From: Actinomycetospora lemnae
GTDB lineage: Bacteria > Actinomycetota > Actinomycetes > Mycobacteriales > Pseudonocardiaceae
Length of the DNA stretch: 64,000 nucleotides
Assembly: GCF_028737315.1 (NCBI RefSeq)
Contig: NZ_JAQZAO010000003.1
Coordinates: 62,001-126,000 of the forward strand
Direction of reading: 5' to 3'
The notes under the pieces were generated by a model, which was not told the origin of the DNA, ran no database searches, and saw only the letters and a list, made by a program, of their open reading frames with translations. Below are positions 22,587-28,893 of this stretch, piece after piece. The position numbers were made by a program, and so were the translations under genes. The stretch's first letter is position 1. Each line of letters opens with the position of its first letter.

Positions 22587-22654
22587 GTCACGGCGGTGAA
22601 ACACGCGGGGGAGGACGACCCGCCCTCGTAGTCACGAGGAAACACTTCGGAAAT
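22587..22654 (+). promoter_or_regulatory. GlnR boxes upstream of the Nit1C operon
   Basis: GTCAC-GGCGGT-GAAAC (22587-22602) is an exact match to the GlnR half-site pair gTnAC-N6-GaAAC. A second element GAAAC-ACTTCG-GAAAT (22639-22654) keeps the 11-bp phase. They lie about 145-210 bp before the first Nit1C gene, the usual range for GlnR activation sites. This would place the operon under nitrogen-limitation control. Confidence 0.65.
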
Positions 22655-22796: not shown

Positions 22797-23315
22797 ATGA
22801 CCAGCACCGAGCTCTCCGACGTCGAGAAGAAGAGCCTCGAGGAGATCCCGCACCCGTCGCTGCCCGAGGGCTCGAGCATCTACGGCGGCACCAAGGTCTT
22901 CCCCGACCTCCAGGCCGAGAACGGCGAGACCTACTTCACCCTCGTGCACGGCATCGCGCACGAGTCGTCGGTCAGCTTCGTCGCCGTCCTCCAGGCGACC
23001 CGCGCGCTGCGCAAGGGCTTCGAGTCGGCCATGTACTTCTACGGCCCCGGCTCGCTGAACTGCCTGGCCACGCGCGGGTTCCCCACCACGGGCACCTCGG
23101 CGTTCCCCGGCGAGCACAACATCAACGACCAGCTCAAGACGTTCATGAGCGAGGGCGGCAAGGTCTACTGCTGCCGCTTCGGGCTGTCGCTGCACGGCGC
23201 CCGCGAGGAGGACCTCATCGAGGGCGTCATCCCGACGCACCCGCTCGACGTCCAGGACGCGCTCATCCACTACGCCCGCAAGGGCGCGATCATCAACTCG
23301 ACCTACCAGCTCTGA
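22797..23315 (+). CDS. MSMEG_0572/Sll0783-family nitrogen-starvation protein
   Basis: 172 residues, ATG after GAGGAGA. The conserved sequence (PEGSSIYGGTKVFPDLQAENGET; FYGPGSLNCLATRGFP; KVYCCRFGLSLHG; EDLIEGVIPTHPLDVQDALI) identifies the family present in every Nit1C-type cluster. Synechocystis Sll0783 is needed for polyhydroxybutyrate accumulation on nitrogen starvation. The biochemical activity is unknown; the fold resembles DsrE-like small proteins, and two adjacent Cys (YCCRF) are conserved-looking. First gene of the operon, downstream of GlnR-like boxes. Confidence 0.9.
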   Translation: MTSTELSDVEKKSLEEIPHPSLPEGSSIYGGTKVFPDLQAENGETYFTLVHGIAHESSVSFVAVLQATRALRKGFESAMYFYGPGSLNCLATRGFPTTGTSAFPGEHNINDQLKTFMSEGGKVYCCRFGLSLHGAREEDLIEGVIPTHPLDVQDALIHYARKGAIINSTYQL

Positions 23316-23389
23316 CGCGCCGCGGCCGGTGCGGGACGACCCGCACCGGCCCCGTGCCATCCCGCGTCGAGAGCACAGGAGGTCCGCCC

Positions 23390-24550
23390 ATGTCGTCCGA
23401 TCCCGGGCTGCCAACCGATCCCCTCGTGGCCGCCCGCTCCGCACTGGCCGTCCGCGGCGTCGCGCTCGACCTCCCCGACACCACCAGCACCACCAGCACC
23501 ACCACCACCACCGACCTCGGCGCCTCGATCCCCCTGCGCCGCCCCGGTGGCGCCGGCCCGTCCGCCGACGGCCACGTCCTCGTCGACGGCCTCAGGACCA
23601 CGATCCCGATCAACCCCGCGAGCCCCTACCGCCTGCACGACGGGCGGCTGGTGCGCACCGGGCCCGACGGCGGCGTCACCGACCTCGGCGTCGACGTCGC
23701 CACCGTCGCCCGCCCCGCCTTCTACGACCTCACCACCGCCGACGGCGTCCCCTACGAGAAGATCGCGCGCCTGCACGGGAACGACGTGCTGGCGACGACG
23801 GTCGTGCAGACCTGCGTGCGCTACGGGGAGCAGGACCGCTGCCGGTTCTGCGCCATCGAGCAGTCGCTGCGCACCGGCGCGACCACCGCGGTGAAGACGC
23901 CCGACCAGCTCGCCGAGGTCGCCGAGGCCGCGGTCCGCCTCGACGGCGTGCAGCAGATGGTGCTGACGACGGGCACGTCGAACGGCCGCGACCGCGGCGC
24001 CCGCCACCTGGCCCGCTGCGTGCGGGCGATCAAGGCCGCGGTGCCGGACCTGCCGATCCAGGTCCAGTGCGAGCCGCCCGCGCCGTCCGACCTCGCCGCG
24101 CTGCAGGAGCTCCAGGAGGCCGGCGCCGACGCGATCGGCATCCACGTCGAGTCCCTCGACGACGCCGTGCGCGCCCGCTGGATGCCCGGCAAGGCCACCG
24201 TCCCCCTGAGCCAGTACCGGCTCGCCTGGGACGAGAGCGTGCGCCTGTTCGGCCCGAACGCCGTGTCGACCTACCTCATCGTCGGGCTCGGCGAGGACCC
24301 CGACGAGCTCGTCGCCGGCGCCGCCGAGCTCGTCGACCGCGGCGTCTACCCCTTCGTCGTCCCCTACCGCCCGATCCCCGGCACGCTCGCCTTCGCCGAC
24401 GGCGACCCCGCACCCGACCCGGAGCTGCTCGCCGAGGTCACCGCGCGCGTCGCCAAGGTCCTGCAGGCCGCCGGCATGCGCGGCGCCGACCAGGCCGCCG
24501 GCTGCGCGGCGTGCGGCGCGTGCTCGGCGCTGTCCGCGGCGGGGGGCTGA
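23390..24550 (+). CDS. MSMEG_0568-family radical SAM protein (Nit1C)
   Basis: 386 residues, ATG after AGGAGG. The cluster motif is atypical: C142-x8-C151-x2-C154 (TCVRYGEQDRCRFCAIEQ) instead of Cx3Cx2C. SAM-barrel elements follow (QMVLTTGTSNGRDRG; IQVQCEPP; ADAIGIHVESLDD; STYLIVGLGEDPDEL). The C-terminus has a second Cys group, CAACGAC, a possible auxiliary cluster. A Thr/Ser run sits at 31-41. The family is an obligatory part of Nit1C clusters and its reaction is unknown. Five bases separate it from the next gene. Confidence 0.9.
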   Translation: MSSDPGLPTDPLVAARSALAVRGVALDLPDTTSTTSTTTTTDLGASIPLRRPGGAGPSADGHVLVDGLRTTIPINPASPYRLHDGRLVRTGPDGGVTDLGVDVATVARPAFYDLTTADGVPYEKIARLHGNDVLATTVVQTCVRYGEQDRCRFCAIEQSLRTGATTAVKTPDQLAEVAEAAVRLDGVQQMVLTTGTSNGRDRGARHLARCVRAIKAAVPDLPIQVQCEPPAPSDLAALQELQEAGADAIGIHVESLDDAVRARWMPGKATVPLSQYRLAWDESVRLFGPNAVSTYLIVGLGEDPDELVAGAAELVDRGVYPFVVPYRPIPGTLAFADGDPAPDPELLAEVTARVAKVLQAAGMRGADQAAGCAACGACSALSAAGG

Positions 24551-24555
24551 GCACG

Positions 24556-26079
24556 ATGTCGCTCCTGGACGACCTGGGCGCCGCCGACGAGATCCTCGGG
24601 GGCCGCTCCCGCCGGCCCGCCCGTGACGTCACGATCACCGAGGCGCCCGCGACCGACGCCCGCCACCCCGACGTCGTCGCCCACCGGGCCCTGCGGCGCG
24701 CGGTGTTCGTCGACGAGCAGGGCCTGTTCCGCGACGACATCGCCGGCGACCTCGACGAGCACGACCACGACCCGCGCGCCGTCGTCCTCGTCGCCCGCGA
24801 CGGCGCCGGCGAGGTGCTGGGCGGCGTGCGTCTCGCACCCGTCGACCCGGACACCGCCCGCCCCGACCTCGGCTGGTGGACGGGCAGCCGCCTCGTCGTC
24901 GCCCCGACGGCCCGGCGCCGCGCCGGGATCCGCGTCGGGGCCGCCCTGGTCCGCGCCGCCTGCGCCCGCGCCGAGGCGGCGGGCGTGCTGCGGTTCGAGG
25001 CCGACGTGCAGGCCGCCAACGAGACCCTCTTCCGCCGGCTGGGCTGGCAGCGGGTCCGCGCGACGACGGTCGCCGGCCGGCCGCACGTGCGCATGCGCCG
25101 GCCCGTCGGGCGCTTCGCCGCCCTCGTCGCGGCGACGAAGGCCCCGCTCGGCGAGCTCGTCGCGGGCCTGGCCGGGAGCGGTGCGCACGTCGGCGACGAC
25201 GGGGCCCCCGTGCCGGGCAGCGACGTCGTCGCGGCCTGCGACGCGATCCTGCCCGCGATGGTCGAGCGCGACCCGGAGTGGGCGGGCTGGTGCGGGGTGC
25301 TGGTCAACGTCAACGACCTCGCCGCCATGGGTGCCGAGCCCATCGCGCTGCTCGACGCCGTCGGCGCGCGCGACGCCTCGTTCGCCCACCGCGTGCTGAC
25401 CGGCCTGCGCGCCGCCGCCGAGGCCTACGGGGTACCGGTGATCGGCGGGCACACGCAGCTCGAGGTGCCCGCTTCGTTGGCGGTCACCGCGCTGGGCCGG
25501 ACGACGACGCCCGTCGCGGCCTCCGGCGGCCGGCCCGGCATGGCCGTGCGCCTGACCGCCGACCTGCACGGCACCTGGCGTCCCGGCTACACCGGCCGGC
25601 AGTGGGACTCGACGTCGACGCGCGCTCCCGCCGACCTGCGGGCCATGGTCGGCGCGATCGGCCCGCGCGCGGCGCACCGGCCGGCGGCGGCCAAGGACGT
25701 GTCGATGGCCGGGGTCGTCGGCACGCTCGGGATGCTCGCCGAGGCGTCGGGGACCGGCGCCGTGCTCGACGTCGCCGCCGTGCCCCGCCCGGCCGGCGCG
25801 ACCCCCGCCGACTGGCTGACCTGCTTCCCCGGCTTCGCGCTGCTCACCGCCGACGAGCCCGGGGCGCCCGCGCCGTCGGCCGGGCCGGCGACGAGCGCCG
25901 TGTGCGGGGAGCTCACCGACACGGTGACCGGGACCGCCGGGGTCGCCCTGCGCTGGCCCGACGGCGAGACCACCGAGGCCGTCGCCGGCGGCGTCACCGG
26001 ACTCGGGGCCGCGCCCCGCGGCGGCGCCGGCGCACCAGGACCGGACCGGGCCCGGACCACCGAAGGGACCACCCCATGA
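24556..26079 (+). CDS. GNAT-AIR synthase-like fusion (MSMEG_0567/Sll0786-Sll0787 type)
   Basis: 507 residues with two domains. The first (about 25-195) is a GNAT acetyltransferase (RALRRAVFVDEQGLF; GGVRLAPVD; LVVAPTARRRAGIRVGAALVRAAC; NETLFRRLGWQ). The second (about 200-480) resembles the AIR synthase/PurM ATP-binding family (PGSDVVAACDAILPAMV; VLVNVNDLAAMGAEP; VPVIGGHTQLEV; AAAKDVSMAGVVGTLGMLAEASG). Cyanobacteria encode the halves separately (sll0786, sll0787); actinobacteria often fuse them. Role in Nit1C unknown. The stop overlaps the next ATG (ATGA). Confidence 0.88.
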   Translation: MSLLDDLGAADEILGGRSRRPARDVTITEAPATDARHPDVVAHRALRRAVFVDEQGLFRDDIAGDLDEHDHDPRAVVLVARDGAGEVLGGVRLAPVDPDTARPDLGWWTGSRLVVAPTARRRAGIRVGAALVRAACARAEAAGVLRFEADVQAANETLFRRLGWQRVRATTVAGRPHVRMRRPVGRFAALVAATKAPLGELVAGLAGSGAHVGDDGAPVPGSDVVAACDAILPAMVERDPEWAGWCGVLVNVNDLAAMGAEPIALLDAVGARDASFAHRVLTGLRAAAEAYGVPVIGGHTQLEVPASLAVTALGRTTTPVAASGGRPGMAVRLTADLHGTWRPGYTGRQWDSTSTRAPADLRAMVGAIGPRAAHRPAAAKDVSMAGVVGTLGMLAEASGTGAVLDVAAVPRPAGATPADWLTCFPGFALLTADEPGAPAPSAGPATSAVCGELTDTVTGTAGVALRWPDGETTEAVAGGVTGLGAAPRGGAGAPGPDRARTTEGTTP

Positions 26080-26960
26080 CCGTCAGGACGTTCGCGGCCG
26101 CCGCCGCGGGCTTCGGCCGCGACCTCGACGAGGACTTCGCGCGGATCGAGGAGCTGCTCGGTCAGGCCCGCGCGGCCGGCGCCGACCTGCTGGCCCTGCC
26201 CGAGGCGGCGCTGGGCGGGTACCTGTCGTCGCTGCACGACTCGGGCGGGGCGGGGGAACCGGTGGACGTGCCGCCGCAGCTCGACGTCGACGGCCCCGAG
26301 GTGCGGCGGTTGATCGCGCTGGCCGGCGACACGGTCGTCACCGCGGGCTTCTGCGAGCGGGGCGACGCGGCGTCGGGCGGGCGTCCGTACAACAGCGCGG
26401 TGGCGGTGACCGGCGACGGCGTGCTCGGGCACCACCGCAAGGTCCACCAGCCGCTCAACGAGCACAGCTCGTACGCCGCGGGCGACCGGTTCACCGCGTT
26501 CGACACGCCGGTCGGCCGGCTCGGCATGATGATCTGCTACGACAAGGCGTTCCCCGAGGCCGCGCGGGCGCTGGCCGTCGACGGGGCCCGGGTCGTGGTG
26601 TGCCTGTCGGCGTGGCCGGCGTCGCGCACCGACCAGGCGCCGGTGCTCGCCGACGACCGCTGGACCCGCCGCTTCGACCTCTTCGACCGTGCGCGGGCGC
26701 TCGAGAACCAGATCGTCTGGGTGTCGGCGAACCAGGCCGGCACGTTCGGGGACATGCGGCTCGTGGCGAGCGCGAAGATCGTCGACCCGGGCGGGGAGGT
26801 CCTCGACACCACGGGGACCGAGGCGGGGCTGGCCGTCGCGTCGGTGGACGTCGACGACGCGGTGGACGCCGCGCGCCGGTTCATGGGCCACCTGCGCGAC
26901 CGGCGGCCGGCGTCGTACGACGCGCCACCGCTCGCGCCCGTCGCGGCCCGGGCCGGCTAG
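26076..26960 (+). CDS. Carbon-nitrogen hydrolase (nitrilase superfamily), intact triad
   Basis: 294 residues. The catalytic triad is complete: E43 (LPEAALGGYL), K122 (HRKVHQP) and C154 (MMICYDKAFPEAARAL); the second Glu in QPLNEHSSY is also kept. Nit1C nitrilases hydrolyse nitriles and are linked to cyanide assimilation. This one is shorter than the about 330-residue Nit1 enzyme, so nitrilase versus amidase activity is open. ATGA-coupled to the GNAT/AIR gene and followed 11 bp later by a paralogue with a broken triad. Confidence 0.85.
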   Translation: MTVRTFAAAAAGFGRDLDEDFARIEELLGQARAAGADLLALPEAALGGYLSSLHDSGGAGEPVDVPPQLDVDGPEVRRLIALAGDTVVTAGFCERGDAASGGRPYNSAVAVTGDGVLGHHRKVHQPLNEHSSYAAGDRFTAFDTPVGRLGMMICYDKAFPEAARALAVDGARVVVCLSAWPASRTDQAPVLADDRWTRRFDLFDRARALENQIVWVSANQAGTFGDMRLVASAKIVDPGGEVLDTTGTEAGLAVASVDVDDAVDAARRFMGHLRDRRPASYDAPPLAPVAARAG

Positions 26961-26971
26961 GAGGTCGACGG

Positions 26972-27805
26972 GTGGTCCGCCTCGCCGCCGCCGCGGCCCA
27001 CTTCACCCGGGACGTCGGGTTCGACCTCGACCGGATCAAGATGATCATCTCGCACGCGCGGGACGCCGGGGTGGCGCTGCTCGCGCTGCCCGACGGGGCG
27101 CTCGGGGGGTACCTCACCGACCTGCGCCACCCCGACGTCGACTGCCTGCCGCCGCTGCTCGAGCCGAACGGCGACGAGGTGCGGTCGGTGATCGACATCG
27201 CCGGCGAGATGATCGTCTGTCTCGGCTACAGCGAGCTGGGTCCCGACGACGGCGACGGCCCGGTGCGCTACGACGCGGCAGTCTGCCTGTCCGGGGACGG
27301 GATCCTCGGGCGGCACCGCAAGGTGCACCTCCCCGCGGGCATCGCGCCGCTGTTCCGCGCCGGCGACGGCTTCTCCGCGTTCGACACCCCGCTCGGGCGG
27401 ATGGGCCTGCTCATCGACCACGACAAGACGTTCCCGGAGGCCGCGCGGGCGCTGGCGGTGGACGGCGCGGAGGTCATCGCGTGCCTGTCGGCCTGGCCGA
27501 CGTCGCTGACCAACCGGGCGCCGCGCATGGCGCAGGACCGCCAGGCGCGCCTGTTCGACCTCTACGACCAGGCGCGGGCCGCGGAGAACCAGGTCGTGTG
27601 GCTCTCGTCGAACCAGAGCGGGCGGCACGGGGCGCTGCACTTCCTGGGCCGGGCGAAGGTCGTCGGCCCGGGCGGGGAGATCCTCGCGCGGACCTGGTCG
27701 AAGGGTGGGCTGGCCGTCGCCGAGGTGGACCTGCCGGGCGCGGTCGGCGCGGCCCGGGCCGTGCTGCACCACCTCGCCGAGCGCCGGCCGGAGACCTACG
27801 GCTGA
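26972..27805 (+). CDS. Nitrilase-fold paralogue lacking the catalytic Cys and Glu
   Basis: 277 residues, GTG after AGGAGG at 7 nt. Clearly homologous to the preceding protein over the full length (LGRHRKVHLP; PEAARALAVDGAEVIACLSAWP). At the catalytic sites, Glu is replaced by D41 (LPDGALGGYL) and Cys by D149 (LLIDHDKTFPE), while K117 remains. Such a protein should not act as a nitrilase; it may be a regulatory or structural partner of the intact paralogue, since nitrilases form helical oligomers. The reading frame, start and coupling to the next gene are intact, so it is not a decaying pseudogene. Confidence 0.85.
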   Translation: MVRLAAAAAHFTRDVGFDLDRIKMIISHARDAGVALLALPDGALGGYLTDLRHPDVDCLPPLLEPNGDEVRSVIDIAGEMIVCLGYSELGPDDGDGPVRYDAAVCLSGDGILGRHRKVHLPAGIAPLFRAGDGFSAFDTPLGRMGLLIDHDKTFPEAARALAVDGAEVIACLSAWPTSLTNRAPRMAQDRQARLFDLYDQARAAENQVVWLSSNQSGRHGALHFLGRAKVVGPGGEILARTWSKGGLAVAEVDLPGAVGAARAVLHHLAERRPETYG

Positions 27806-28893
27806 TGAAGATCGCGCTGTTGACGTACTCGACGAAGCCGCGCGGCGGGGTCGTGCACACGCTCGCGCTGGCCGAGGCGTTCGCGCGGGCGGGGCACGAC
27901 GTGACGGTGTGGGCGCTCGCGCGGGGTGGGGACACGGGGTTCTTCCGGGCGGTCGCCCCCGAGGTGACCGTGCGTCTCGTGCCGGTGCCCGAGATCGAGG
28001 GCGAGTCGGTGGGGGAGCGGATCCTGCGGTCGATCGCGCTGCTCGGGGACGCCTTCGAGGGTGCGTCCGACGTGGTGCACGCCCAGGACTGTCTGACGGC
28101 GAACGCGGTCGGTCGCGCGCGGGGCTACGCCGGGTTGTGGCGGACCGTGCACCACCTCGACCGGTTCACGACGCCCGAGCTCGCCGCCTGCCACGAGCGG
28201 GCGATCGTGGAGCCGGCGGCGCTGGTGTGCGTGTCGGCGGCGGTGGCGGCCGAGGTGCGCGACGGGTGGGGGCGGTCGCCGGCGGTGATCGGGAACGGGG
28301 TGGACGCGGCGCGCTTCTCCGCGGCCGCCGCCTCCGGCGCGGGGGAGCCGTGGCGGGCGCGGTACGGGCGCTACGTGCTGGCCGTCGGCGGCATCGAGCC
28401 GCGGAAGGGGACGCTGGAGCTGGTCGAGGCGATGGCGCTCCTGCCCGGTGTCCCGTTGCTCGTCGCGGGCGGGGACACGCTGTTCGACTACCGGGGGTAT
28501 CGGGACGAGGTGTTCGCGCGGGCCGCGGCGCTGGGGGTGTCACCCGTGGTGCTGGGGCCGGTCGAGGACGCCGAGCTGCCGGGGCTCGTGGCGGGCGCGG
28601 CGGTGTTCGCGTTCCCGTCGACGAAGGAGGGCTTCGGGCTCGCGGCGATGGAGGCGCTCGCGGCGGGCGTGCCGCTCGTGACGCGGGACCTGCCGGTGCT
28701 GCGCGAGGTGTTCGCGGGCGCGGCGCGCTTCGCCGACGGGCCGGAGGGCTTCGCGCGCGAGATCGGGCGGGTGCTCGACGGTGGGGACCCCGAGCTCGAC
28801 CCGGCCCACGCGACCGTCGGCCGGGCGCTGGCGGCGGCGCACACCTGGGACGCCGCGGCCGCCGCCCACCTGGACCTCTACCGGCGCGGCTGA
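27805..28893 (+). CDS. MSMEG_0565-family glycosyltransferase (GT4-like, Nit1C)
   Basis: 362 residues, GT-B fold. N-terminal MKIALLTYSTKPRGGVVHTLALAEAFARAGHDV; a donor-binding region VLAVGGIEPRKGTLELVEAM and the GT4 motif FAFPSTKEGFGLAAMEALAAGVPLVT with the E(x7)E pair. Its start ATG overlaps the preceding TGA by one base. It is the member of Nit1C clusters that hints at a glycosylated product; donor and acceptor are unknown. Last gene of the operon; a palindromic repeat follows 19 bp later and may act as terminator. Confidence 0.88.
   Translation: MKIALLTYSTKPRGGVVHTLALAEAFARAGHDVTVWALARGGDTGFFRAVAPEVTVRLVPVPEIEGESVGERILRSIALLGDAFEGASDVVHAQDCLTANAVGRARGYAGLWRTVHHLDRFTTPELAACHERAIVEPAALVCVSAAVAAEVRDGWGRSPAVIGNGVDAARFSAAAASGAGEPWRARYGRYVLAVGGIEPRKGTLELVEAMALLPGVPLLVAGGDTLFDYRGYRDEVFARAAALGVSPVVLGPVEDAELPGLVAGAAVFAFPSTKEGFGLAAMEALAAGVPLVTRDLPVLREVFAGAARFADGPEGFAREIGRVLDGGDPELDPAHATVGRALAAAHTWDAAAAAHLDLYRRG

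Follow-up and report, generated by a model that had tools for sequence, protein, structure and literature searches.

The window, the whole 64,000-nucleotide stretch of Actinomycetospora lemnae DNA that was analysed, contains an operon with genes in the order MSMEG_0572, radical SAM MSMEG_0568, GNAT/AIRS MSMEG_0567, an intact carbon-nitrogen hydrolase, a paralogue of the latter termed D-type, and the glycosyltransferase MSMEG_0565 (Table 1). As the 0572, 0568, 0567 and 0565 families stand together with carbon-nitrogen hydrolases in one operon, the locus belongs to the MSMEG_0565-0572 (gpr) clusters. A homologue (60%) of the 0569 flavoprotein lies away from the window cluster (L189, G000:C11:322857-324068), with no other cluster gene in the 4.2 kb around it. 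A GlnR-like box, GTCACGGCGGTGAAAC, at 22587-22602, 5' of the gene at 22797, matches GTNACN6GNAAC exactly; with one mismatch allowed, the window holds 20 matches versus 23.4 expected by chance, and the box was set aside.

Table 1. Genes and sites of the cluster in the window
Feature	Position	Strand	Basis
MSMEG_0572/Sll0783 family nitrogen starvation response protein	22797..23315	+	TIGR04044, 251.2 bits vs cut-off 109.85
MSMEG_0568 family radical SAM protein	23390..24550	+	TIGR04043, 496.4 bits vs cut-off 303.7
MSMEG_0567 family GNAT + AIR-synthase-like protein	24556..26079	+	TIGR04050 and TIGR04045 above cut-off
Intact carbon-nitrogen hydrolase paralogue (E43, K122, E129, C154)	26076..26960	+	Pfam, alignment
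AGGAGG ribosome-binding site	26959..26964	+	Read by eye; 7 bases 5' of the GTG start
D-type pseudo-nitrilase, gene at the MSMEG_0566 position	26972..27805	+	GTG start, 277 aa, open frame
D41 codon GAC, site of the catalytic base Glu	27092..27094	+	Alignment to E43 of the intact copy
K117 codon AAG, catalytic Lys retained	27320..27322	+	Alignment to K122 of the intact copy
I124 codon ATC, second catalytic Glu site	27341..27343	+	Alignment to E129 of the intact copy
D149 codon GAC, nucleophile Cys site	27416..27418	+	Alignment to C154 of the intact copy
MSMEG_0565 family GT4 glycosyltransferase	27805..28893	+	TIGR04047, 425.8 bits vs cut-off 259.85; 1-base overlap with the D-type gene

The D-type product matches the CN_hydrolase profile (PF00795, 3.1e-28; 99.2 bits, cut-off 23.2) and is 52% identical to the product of the upstream intact gene over 281 columns. 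Its AlphaFold2 model has a mean pLDDT of 96.2 and a pTM of 0.93, and that of the intact copy 92.8 and 0.90. Structural similarity search using Foldseek with the D-type model returned amidases, carbamoylases and nitrilases, with TMq values of 0.78-0.85 among the 50 matches listed. By fold and homology (Pfam, AlphaFold2 and Foldseek), the protein is thus a member of the nitrilase superfamily.

The catalytic tetrad of this superfamily comprises a base Glu, a Lys, a second Glu and a nucleophile Cys. A preliminary description of this DNA had placed Asp residues (D41 and D149) at the Glu and Cys sites and K117 at the retained Lys, and alignment to E43, C154 and K122 of the intact copy confirmed all three. 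It had overlooked, however, that the second catalytic Glu is also lost (I124), so that three of the four tetrad residues are changed in the window protein and only the Lys is left. The resulting tetrad, D-K-I-D, departs from the Glu-Lys-Glu-Cys of a catalytic member. In addition, His instead of Tyr directly follows D149, and K117 would form an ion pair with D149 in the pocket. The frame, ribosome-binding site and one-base coupling to the next gene are intact as described, with an open frame of 277 residues, the AGGAGG motif and the stop codon TGA (27803-27805) overlapping the ATG of the next gene at 27805. The third-position GC of the gene is 0.98, and those of its neighbours are 0.98 and 0.97.

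Catalytic sites, origin and selection of the D-type branch

Homologues were found in 17 of 18 genomes of the genus (the one miss being a 59% complete genome), in 59 of 249 genomes of the family sample, in 50 of 394 of the class sample and in 9 of 396 of the phylum sample. D-type proteins as read account for 58 of the family matches, the remaining genome (G209) giving an intact-type copy only, and for 33 and 5 of the class and phylum matches, respectively. A local mutation, which the preliminary description had named as the condition under which its reading would fail, should leave Cys and Glu in the orthologues; neither residue was retained in any of the 17 orthologues of the genus or the 42 from the rest of the family sample. 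Asp occupies both sites in all 17 D-type orthologues read within the genus and in most D-type proteins further away.

Among 178 distinct close relatives from profile and protein searches, the Cys site is Asp in 92 and Cys in 86, with no third letter. All 86 intact relatives are Glu-Lys-Glu-Cys, with three distant intact proteins kept apart from this count; the intact copy of L091, cut by a contig end, reads -EEC. In the 92 D-type proteins, the Lys site is Lys in 91 and Gln in one, and the base site is Asp in 84, Gly in seven and Gln in one, never Glu. The second Glu is retained in 71 and replaced by Val or Ile in 21, a loss seen in the genus of the window and some close genera. A genome-wide scan with the peptide pattern LID[YH]DKTF and one other, from which 80 of 429 relatives were taken, added 74 distinct D-type proteins among the matches listed, all with Lys and the second Glu and with Asp (72) or Tyr (2) at the base site; as the pattern is biased towards Asp, these are counted apart from the 92. 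Plasmids contributed three further D-type proteins, all D-K-E-D, and one protein of the phylum sample (L233) reads D-K-D-D. With the pattern-scan matches listed and the plasmids included, the Cys site of 332 distinct close relatives is Asp in 169 and Cys in 163, with no other residue, and the 169 D-type proteins keep the Lys in 168 and the second Glu in 148. As far as these sequences go, Asp at the nucleophile site of D-type is fixed and the Lys nearly so, and a base site of Asp, Gly, Gln or Tyr but never Glu indicates that base catalysis is not under constraint.

D-type is defined by the letter at the Cys site, a column that the supporting tree masks. Representatives below 82% identity (43 D-type, 41 intact) part on a single branch with a support of 100/100 when all four catalytic columns are masked. 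This tree, built without L172, L173, L188 and the own-genome outgroups, replaced a first one in which distant own-genome outgroups formed long branches and D-type support was only 59. A wider tree that takes in other classes of Actinomycetota gives D-type an intact sister clade (L234, L235, L236 and L244; 98/87), but placing all intact proteins on one side is not rejected by the AU test (p 0.093). From these alignments, the clade is likely the sister of D-type, and if so, the ancestor of D-type was an intact enzyme distinct from the one now beside it. Members of this possible sister clade lie directly 5' of a gene for asparagine synthase in two of four genomes from these other classes (L245 6698-9143, L248 226-2673; both above the TIGR01536 cut-off).

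Across 20 genomes, pairwise dN/dS has a median of 0.27 in D-type against 0.23 in the intact paralogue (189 pairs used, one of the 190 dropped), and relaxed selection, the other outcome that the preliminary description had set against itself, is not seen. The D-type value exceeds the intact one in 124 of the 189 pairs; when the window gene is one of the pair (19 pairs), D-type has the lower value against the eight nearest genomes (8/8) and the higher one against the other 11. Column entropy in D-type averages 0.55 bits in the pocket motifs versus 1.03 in the rest, and 0.63 versus 1.17 in the intact group, the pocket-motif columns being our choice around the four sites plus the SAWP stretch. Sites conserved differently between the two groups (at least 90% in each) are 41, 149, 153 (T for A), 191 (Q for W), 194 (L for R), 204, 225, 265 and 270. 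Judged by the alignments and trees, the D-type clade no longer has its Cys nucleophile and Glu base, a loss most simply placed on a single ancient branch, and D-type is a real, old and selected pseudo-nitrilase branch, not a local mutation. With catalytic residues lost, the fold retained and the gene under selection, it has the hallmarks of a pseudoenzyme.

Genomic linkage of D-type

The 0565 glycosyltransferase is the next gene in 139 of the 144 D-type genes with room to tell, a count made without L004 (an ordinary nitrilase) and without one D-type gene lacking downstream room. The spacing ranges from a 4-base overlap to a 5-base gap in 96 of the 139, with the glycosyltransferase start taken from the match. 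The five exceptions comprise three genomes with the glycosyltransferase elsewhere (G218, G580 and G645), one in which its interior is deleted (G011) and one with none at E 1e-30 (G278). Directly upstream of D-type, 145 hits gave 0569 in 67, the intact nitrilase in 39, 0567 in 27, 0570 in 7 and none in 5.

Ninety long loci (12 kb or longer and with four or more cluster genes; near-copies kept, related loci not thinned) keep certain blocks whole: 0568-0567 in 88 of 89, intact-0570-0569 in 64 of 64 and 60 of 60, and D-type-0565 in 82 of 82. The order of the blocks is reshuffled, and the D-type-0565 adjacency persists through several operon orders. The intact gene adjoins D-type in two of the 80 long loci holding both; in the family of the window, the two are usually adjacent. 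Short family loci are outside the long-locus count and inside the upstream and downstream neighbour counts, and some other loci are in neither. The usual order in Mycolicibacterium and Mycobacterium, 0572-intact-0570-0569-0568-0567-D-type-0565, puts D-type at the number 0566 and the intact copy at 0571, so D-type equates to MSMEG_0566 by gene order only.

Evolutionary distances were compared over 42 loci, thinned from 76 holding seven genes, as partial correlations controlled for the other genes with 1000 permutations. D-type correlates with the radical SAM protein at 0.36 and with the glycosyltransferase at 0.27 (permutations as high: 0/1000 each), followed by 0572 at 0.17 (58/1000), 0567 at 0.14 (21/1000) and 0569 at 0.11 (31/1000). 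No link of D-type to the intact nitrilase beyond the cluster background was found over these 42 loci (partial r -0.02, 654/1000 as high); the intact nitrilase correlates with 0569 at 0.79 (0/1000). The constant neighbour of D-type is the glycosyltransferase MSMEG_0565, and its pairing with the adjoining intact nitrilase is lineage-specific. The preliminary description is borne out in that selection acts on a copy without catalytic residues, but a pairing with the gene at 26076 is not supported as the main story (intact copy directly upstream in 39 of 145 hits, adjacent in 2 of 80 long loci, partial r -0.02). At the level of gene linkage, the glycosyltransferase is strongly suggested as the partner of D-type.

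Two genomes depart from the common arrangement. In G011, an 84% complete draft of the same genus, the segments aligned to 22827-26937 and 27879-28825 of the window are absent and D-type remains, with its Lys changed to Gln, the sole such change among the 169 D-type proteins, pattern-scan matches listed included. Among the genomes in which D-type was found, G278 alone lacks the intact paralogue (E 1e-40), glycosyltransferase (E 1e-30) and radical SAM at the limits used; its orphan D-type (L166 7342-9334) has no other cluster gene in 16 kb, and an aldose 1-epimerase frame (PF01263, 2.9e-79) starts one base after the D-type stop. A single case each, they hint at a tie of D-type to the cluster and to sugar chemistry. 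On another contig, G011 (L011/L253, L254) carries a second, divergent cluster with 0572, 0568, 0567 (GNAT part) and glycosyltransferase homologues of 39-48% identity. In a contig filed as an Acidobacteriaceae MAG (L112), D-type is 72% identical to the Rhodococcus query and surrounded by 0569, 0568, 0567 and the glycosyltransferase, which may be misbinning or transfer.

The same glycosyltransferase family is present in seven of the nine D-less clusters read, the other two having a weak match at a contig end (L249) and none (L251). As the glycosyltransferases of D-less clusters fall in three places of the glycosyltransferase tree, D-type was probably lost at least twice, and the glycosyltransferase can do without it. 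In three D-less clusters of family f20, the intact nitrilase and the glycosyltransferase flank a FAD-oxidoreductase-like frame of 517-571 residues, in the place that 0570, 0569 and D-type take in other clusters (L161 8769-10322, L163 6148-7863 and L165 8495-10108; the profile matches of the L161 frame are below cut-off).

Candidate roles of the D-type protein

Hydrolysis by nitrilases is thiol-based and needs the nucleophile Cys. The loss of tetrad residues, read with this established mechanism, rules out thiol-based hydrolysis of nitriles or amides, and D-type is likely non-hydrolytic. The conserved, Cys-free pocket would suit ligand binding as well as an Asp-based chemistry; the partner and mechanism set out here are what we infer.

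As the best explanation, we tentatively favour that the selected pseudo-nitrilase is a dedicated partner of the downstream GT4 glycosyltransferase MSMEG_0565, acting like EryCII for EryCIII. The pocket of D-type, with a Lys-Asp pair replacing the reactive Cys, would hold the nitrogen-bearing compound from the radical-SAM and GNAT/AIRS proteins; alternatively, D-type might only stabilise and activate the glycosyltransferase, although a pure scaffold would not need a pocket this conserved. We have less confidence in a fuller version: in an actinomycete gpr/Nit1C-like nitrogen-starvation cluster, an ancient nitrilase-fold pseudoenzyme clade with Cys fixed as Asp would have become a partner, obligate or modulating, of the GT4 glycosyltransferase, and its former active site would bind an acceptor that bears nitrogen. 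Besides the D-less clusters with the same glycosyltransferase family and the three of 144 cases with the glycosyltransferase elsewhere in the genome, two further points weigh against a glycosyltransferase partner. The distance link to the radical SAM protein (0.36) is higher than that to the glycosyltransferase (0.27), and those to 0569 (0.11) and 0567 (0.14) are also above most permutations. Moreover, the fixed order may reflect only expression or co-transfer, and the loci are phylogenetically non-independent.

The conserved pocket can also be read as the seat of a new chemistry. Carrying its charge from the outset, D149 would act as nucleophile or acid/base on a substrate that bears sugar or nitrogen, with K117 and, in most of the proteins, the second Glu retained. 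We regard this as doubtful. An already charged D149 would make the Glu base dispensable, and the base site does vary, as expected without a thiol to deprotonate. The absence of drift from Asp at the nucleophile site, the nearly fixed Lys, the conserved pocket motifs and the second Glu retained in 71 of 92 D-type proteins are in line with it, and USP53/54, annotated as pseudoenzymes, proved active according to the available part of PMC12037411. The second Glu is nevertheless lost in 21 of 92, in the genus of the window and some close genera, and W196 and R199, conserved in the intact group, are replaced in D-type. Nor do we know of a nitrilase-fold enzyme with Asp as nucleophile. A dead D-type subunit that joins and tunes the oligomer of the intact paralogue appears rather unlikely, although a dead paralogue regulating a live enzyme is known from the AdoMetDC prozyme (available part of PMC5201418). 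The two proteins are 52% identical, their genes are usually adjacent in the family of the window, and D-type genomes nearly always have an intact-level copy (class sample, 32 of 33; family sample, 57 of 58), which lies elsewhere in all five tested genomes whose D-type locus had none, a sixth such locus (L117) being outside the test. Such co-occurrence fits a heteromer or simply a common pathway. Conversely, 16 class-sample genomes show only one match, at the intact level, and lack D-type, with all seven of those loci read being Glu-Lys-Glu-Cys, and the two genes are on different contigs in three genomes. Their adjacency in 2 of 80 long loci, the missing distance link (partial r -0.02) and a D-type that may be nearer to a separate intact clade than to this partner (98/87, but AU p 0.093) also argue against a heteromer.

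It is improbable that D-type is merely co-transcribed with the glycosyltransferase and has a separate role, for instance as a sensor of a cluster metabolite that modulates another step such as the radical-SAM enzyme. The conserved but Cys-free pocket and the strongest distance link of D-type, that to MSMEG_0568 (0.36), would suit a sensor; the survival of the D-type-glycosyltransferase adjacency through operon reshuffling would not, and 0568 is absent from the genes directly upstream of D-type, with no 0568/D-type adjacency listed in the long loci. Scarcely credible is a decaying duplicate without function. The genus of the window retains just one of the four catalytic residues, and 124 of 189 pairs, including 11 of the 19 with the window gene, have a higher dN/dS in D-type than in the intact gene, as decay would predict; this is outweighed by the open frame in the copies read, the single split on an old branch, the fixed Asp, the nearly fixed Lys and a low dN/dS, which in the nearest genomes (8/8) is below that of the intact gene.

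These readings bear on current annotation. Relatives of D-type are labelled hydrolases: a Rhodococcus plasmid has its D-type gene annotated as a carbon-nitrogen hydrolase, and MSMEG_0566, the D-type counterpart by gene order, goes by aliphatic amidase in the available text of PMC6039565, PMC4617892 and PMC4222082. Such labels give the gpr cluster a hydrolytic nitrogen-scavenging step at odds with the D-type residues. Should the glycosyltransferase link be true, the product of the gpr cluster is probably glycosylated and a clear protein pair becomes testable. The nitrilase superfamily would also gain a pseudoenzyme branch with a fixed Cys-to-Asp change, for which candidates for the closest intact relatives are available. 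A literature search for pseudoenzymes of the nitrilase superfamily or carbon-nitrogen hydrolases found none among the matches listed, mostly from outside subscription journals, so novelty is not proven.

Comparison with known systems

D-type resembles the nitrilase superfamily PF00795 (e.g. the Pyrococcus amidase 6ypa and the nitrilase 3ivz) in fold, motif order, catalytic Lys and conserved pocket motifs. It differs by the change of Cys to Asp and of the base Glu to Asp, Gly, Gln or Tyr, plus the loss of the second Glu in the genus of the window.

The window cluster shares its families with the MSMEG_0565-0572 gpr cluster of M. smegmatis, which the available part of PMC6039565 describes as GlnR-dependent and linked to biofilm peroxide resistance. 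MSMEG_0566 is called there a putative aliphatic amidase and possible contributor to nitrogen assimilation, whereas D-type has lost the Cys nucleophile and the base Glu. In the accessible tables, MSMEG_0571 and MSMEG_0566 stand at 4.06 and 2.96 among genes changed under nitrogen limitation (PMC4617892), and MSMEG_0566 at 8.94 in the section comparing the wild type with a glnR mutant (PMC4222082); the same excerpt reports GlnR binding upstream of MSMEG_0572. The Nit1C/Nit6803 clusters, involved in cyanide assimilation in Pseudomonas (available part of PMC11049912), have the radical SAM, GNAT, AIRS and 0572 families in common with the window cluster, a likeness drawn from plasmid annotations and profiles. 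Their nitrilase is of the Nit6803 family by annotation, whereas the intact copy of the window is far below the TIGR04048 cut-off (22.9 vs 502.6 bits) and the same profile listed no match to D-type, which places D-type outside Nit6803. A second, dead nitrilase copy in Nit1C clusters is not mentioned in the available part of PMC11049912.

A functional parallel is offered by auxiliaries of the EryCII/DesVIII type. EryCII, a heme-less P450 homologue without the heme Cys, stabilises and activates EryCIII (available part of PMC3391682). Such auxiliaries are inactive homologues of an enzyme that have lost a key Cys and work with a glycosyltransferase; D-type has likewise lost its Cys, is probably inactive and shares the gene linkage to a glycosyltransferase. 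The glycosyltransferase of the EryCII system is of another family than MSMEG_0565. The auxiliaries have a P450 fold compared to the nitrilase fold of D-type; a complex has been demonstrated for EryCII, whereas for D-type it would follow from the linkage, and the old pocket of EryCII is described as mobile, while that of D-type is conserved (available part of PMC3391682 for EryCII). As D-type does not have the P450 fold, its likeness to EryCII is one of analogy and not of membership, and D-type would be the nitrilase counterpart of the P450-derived helpers.
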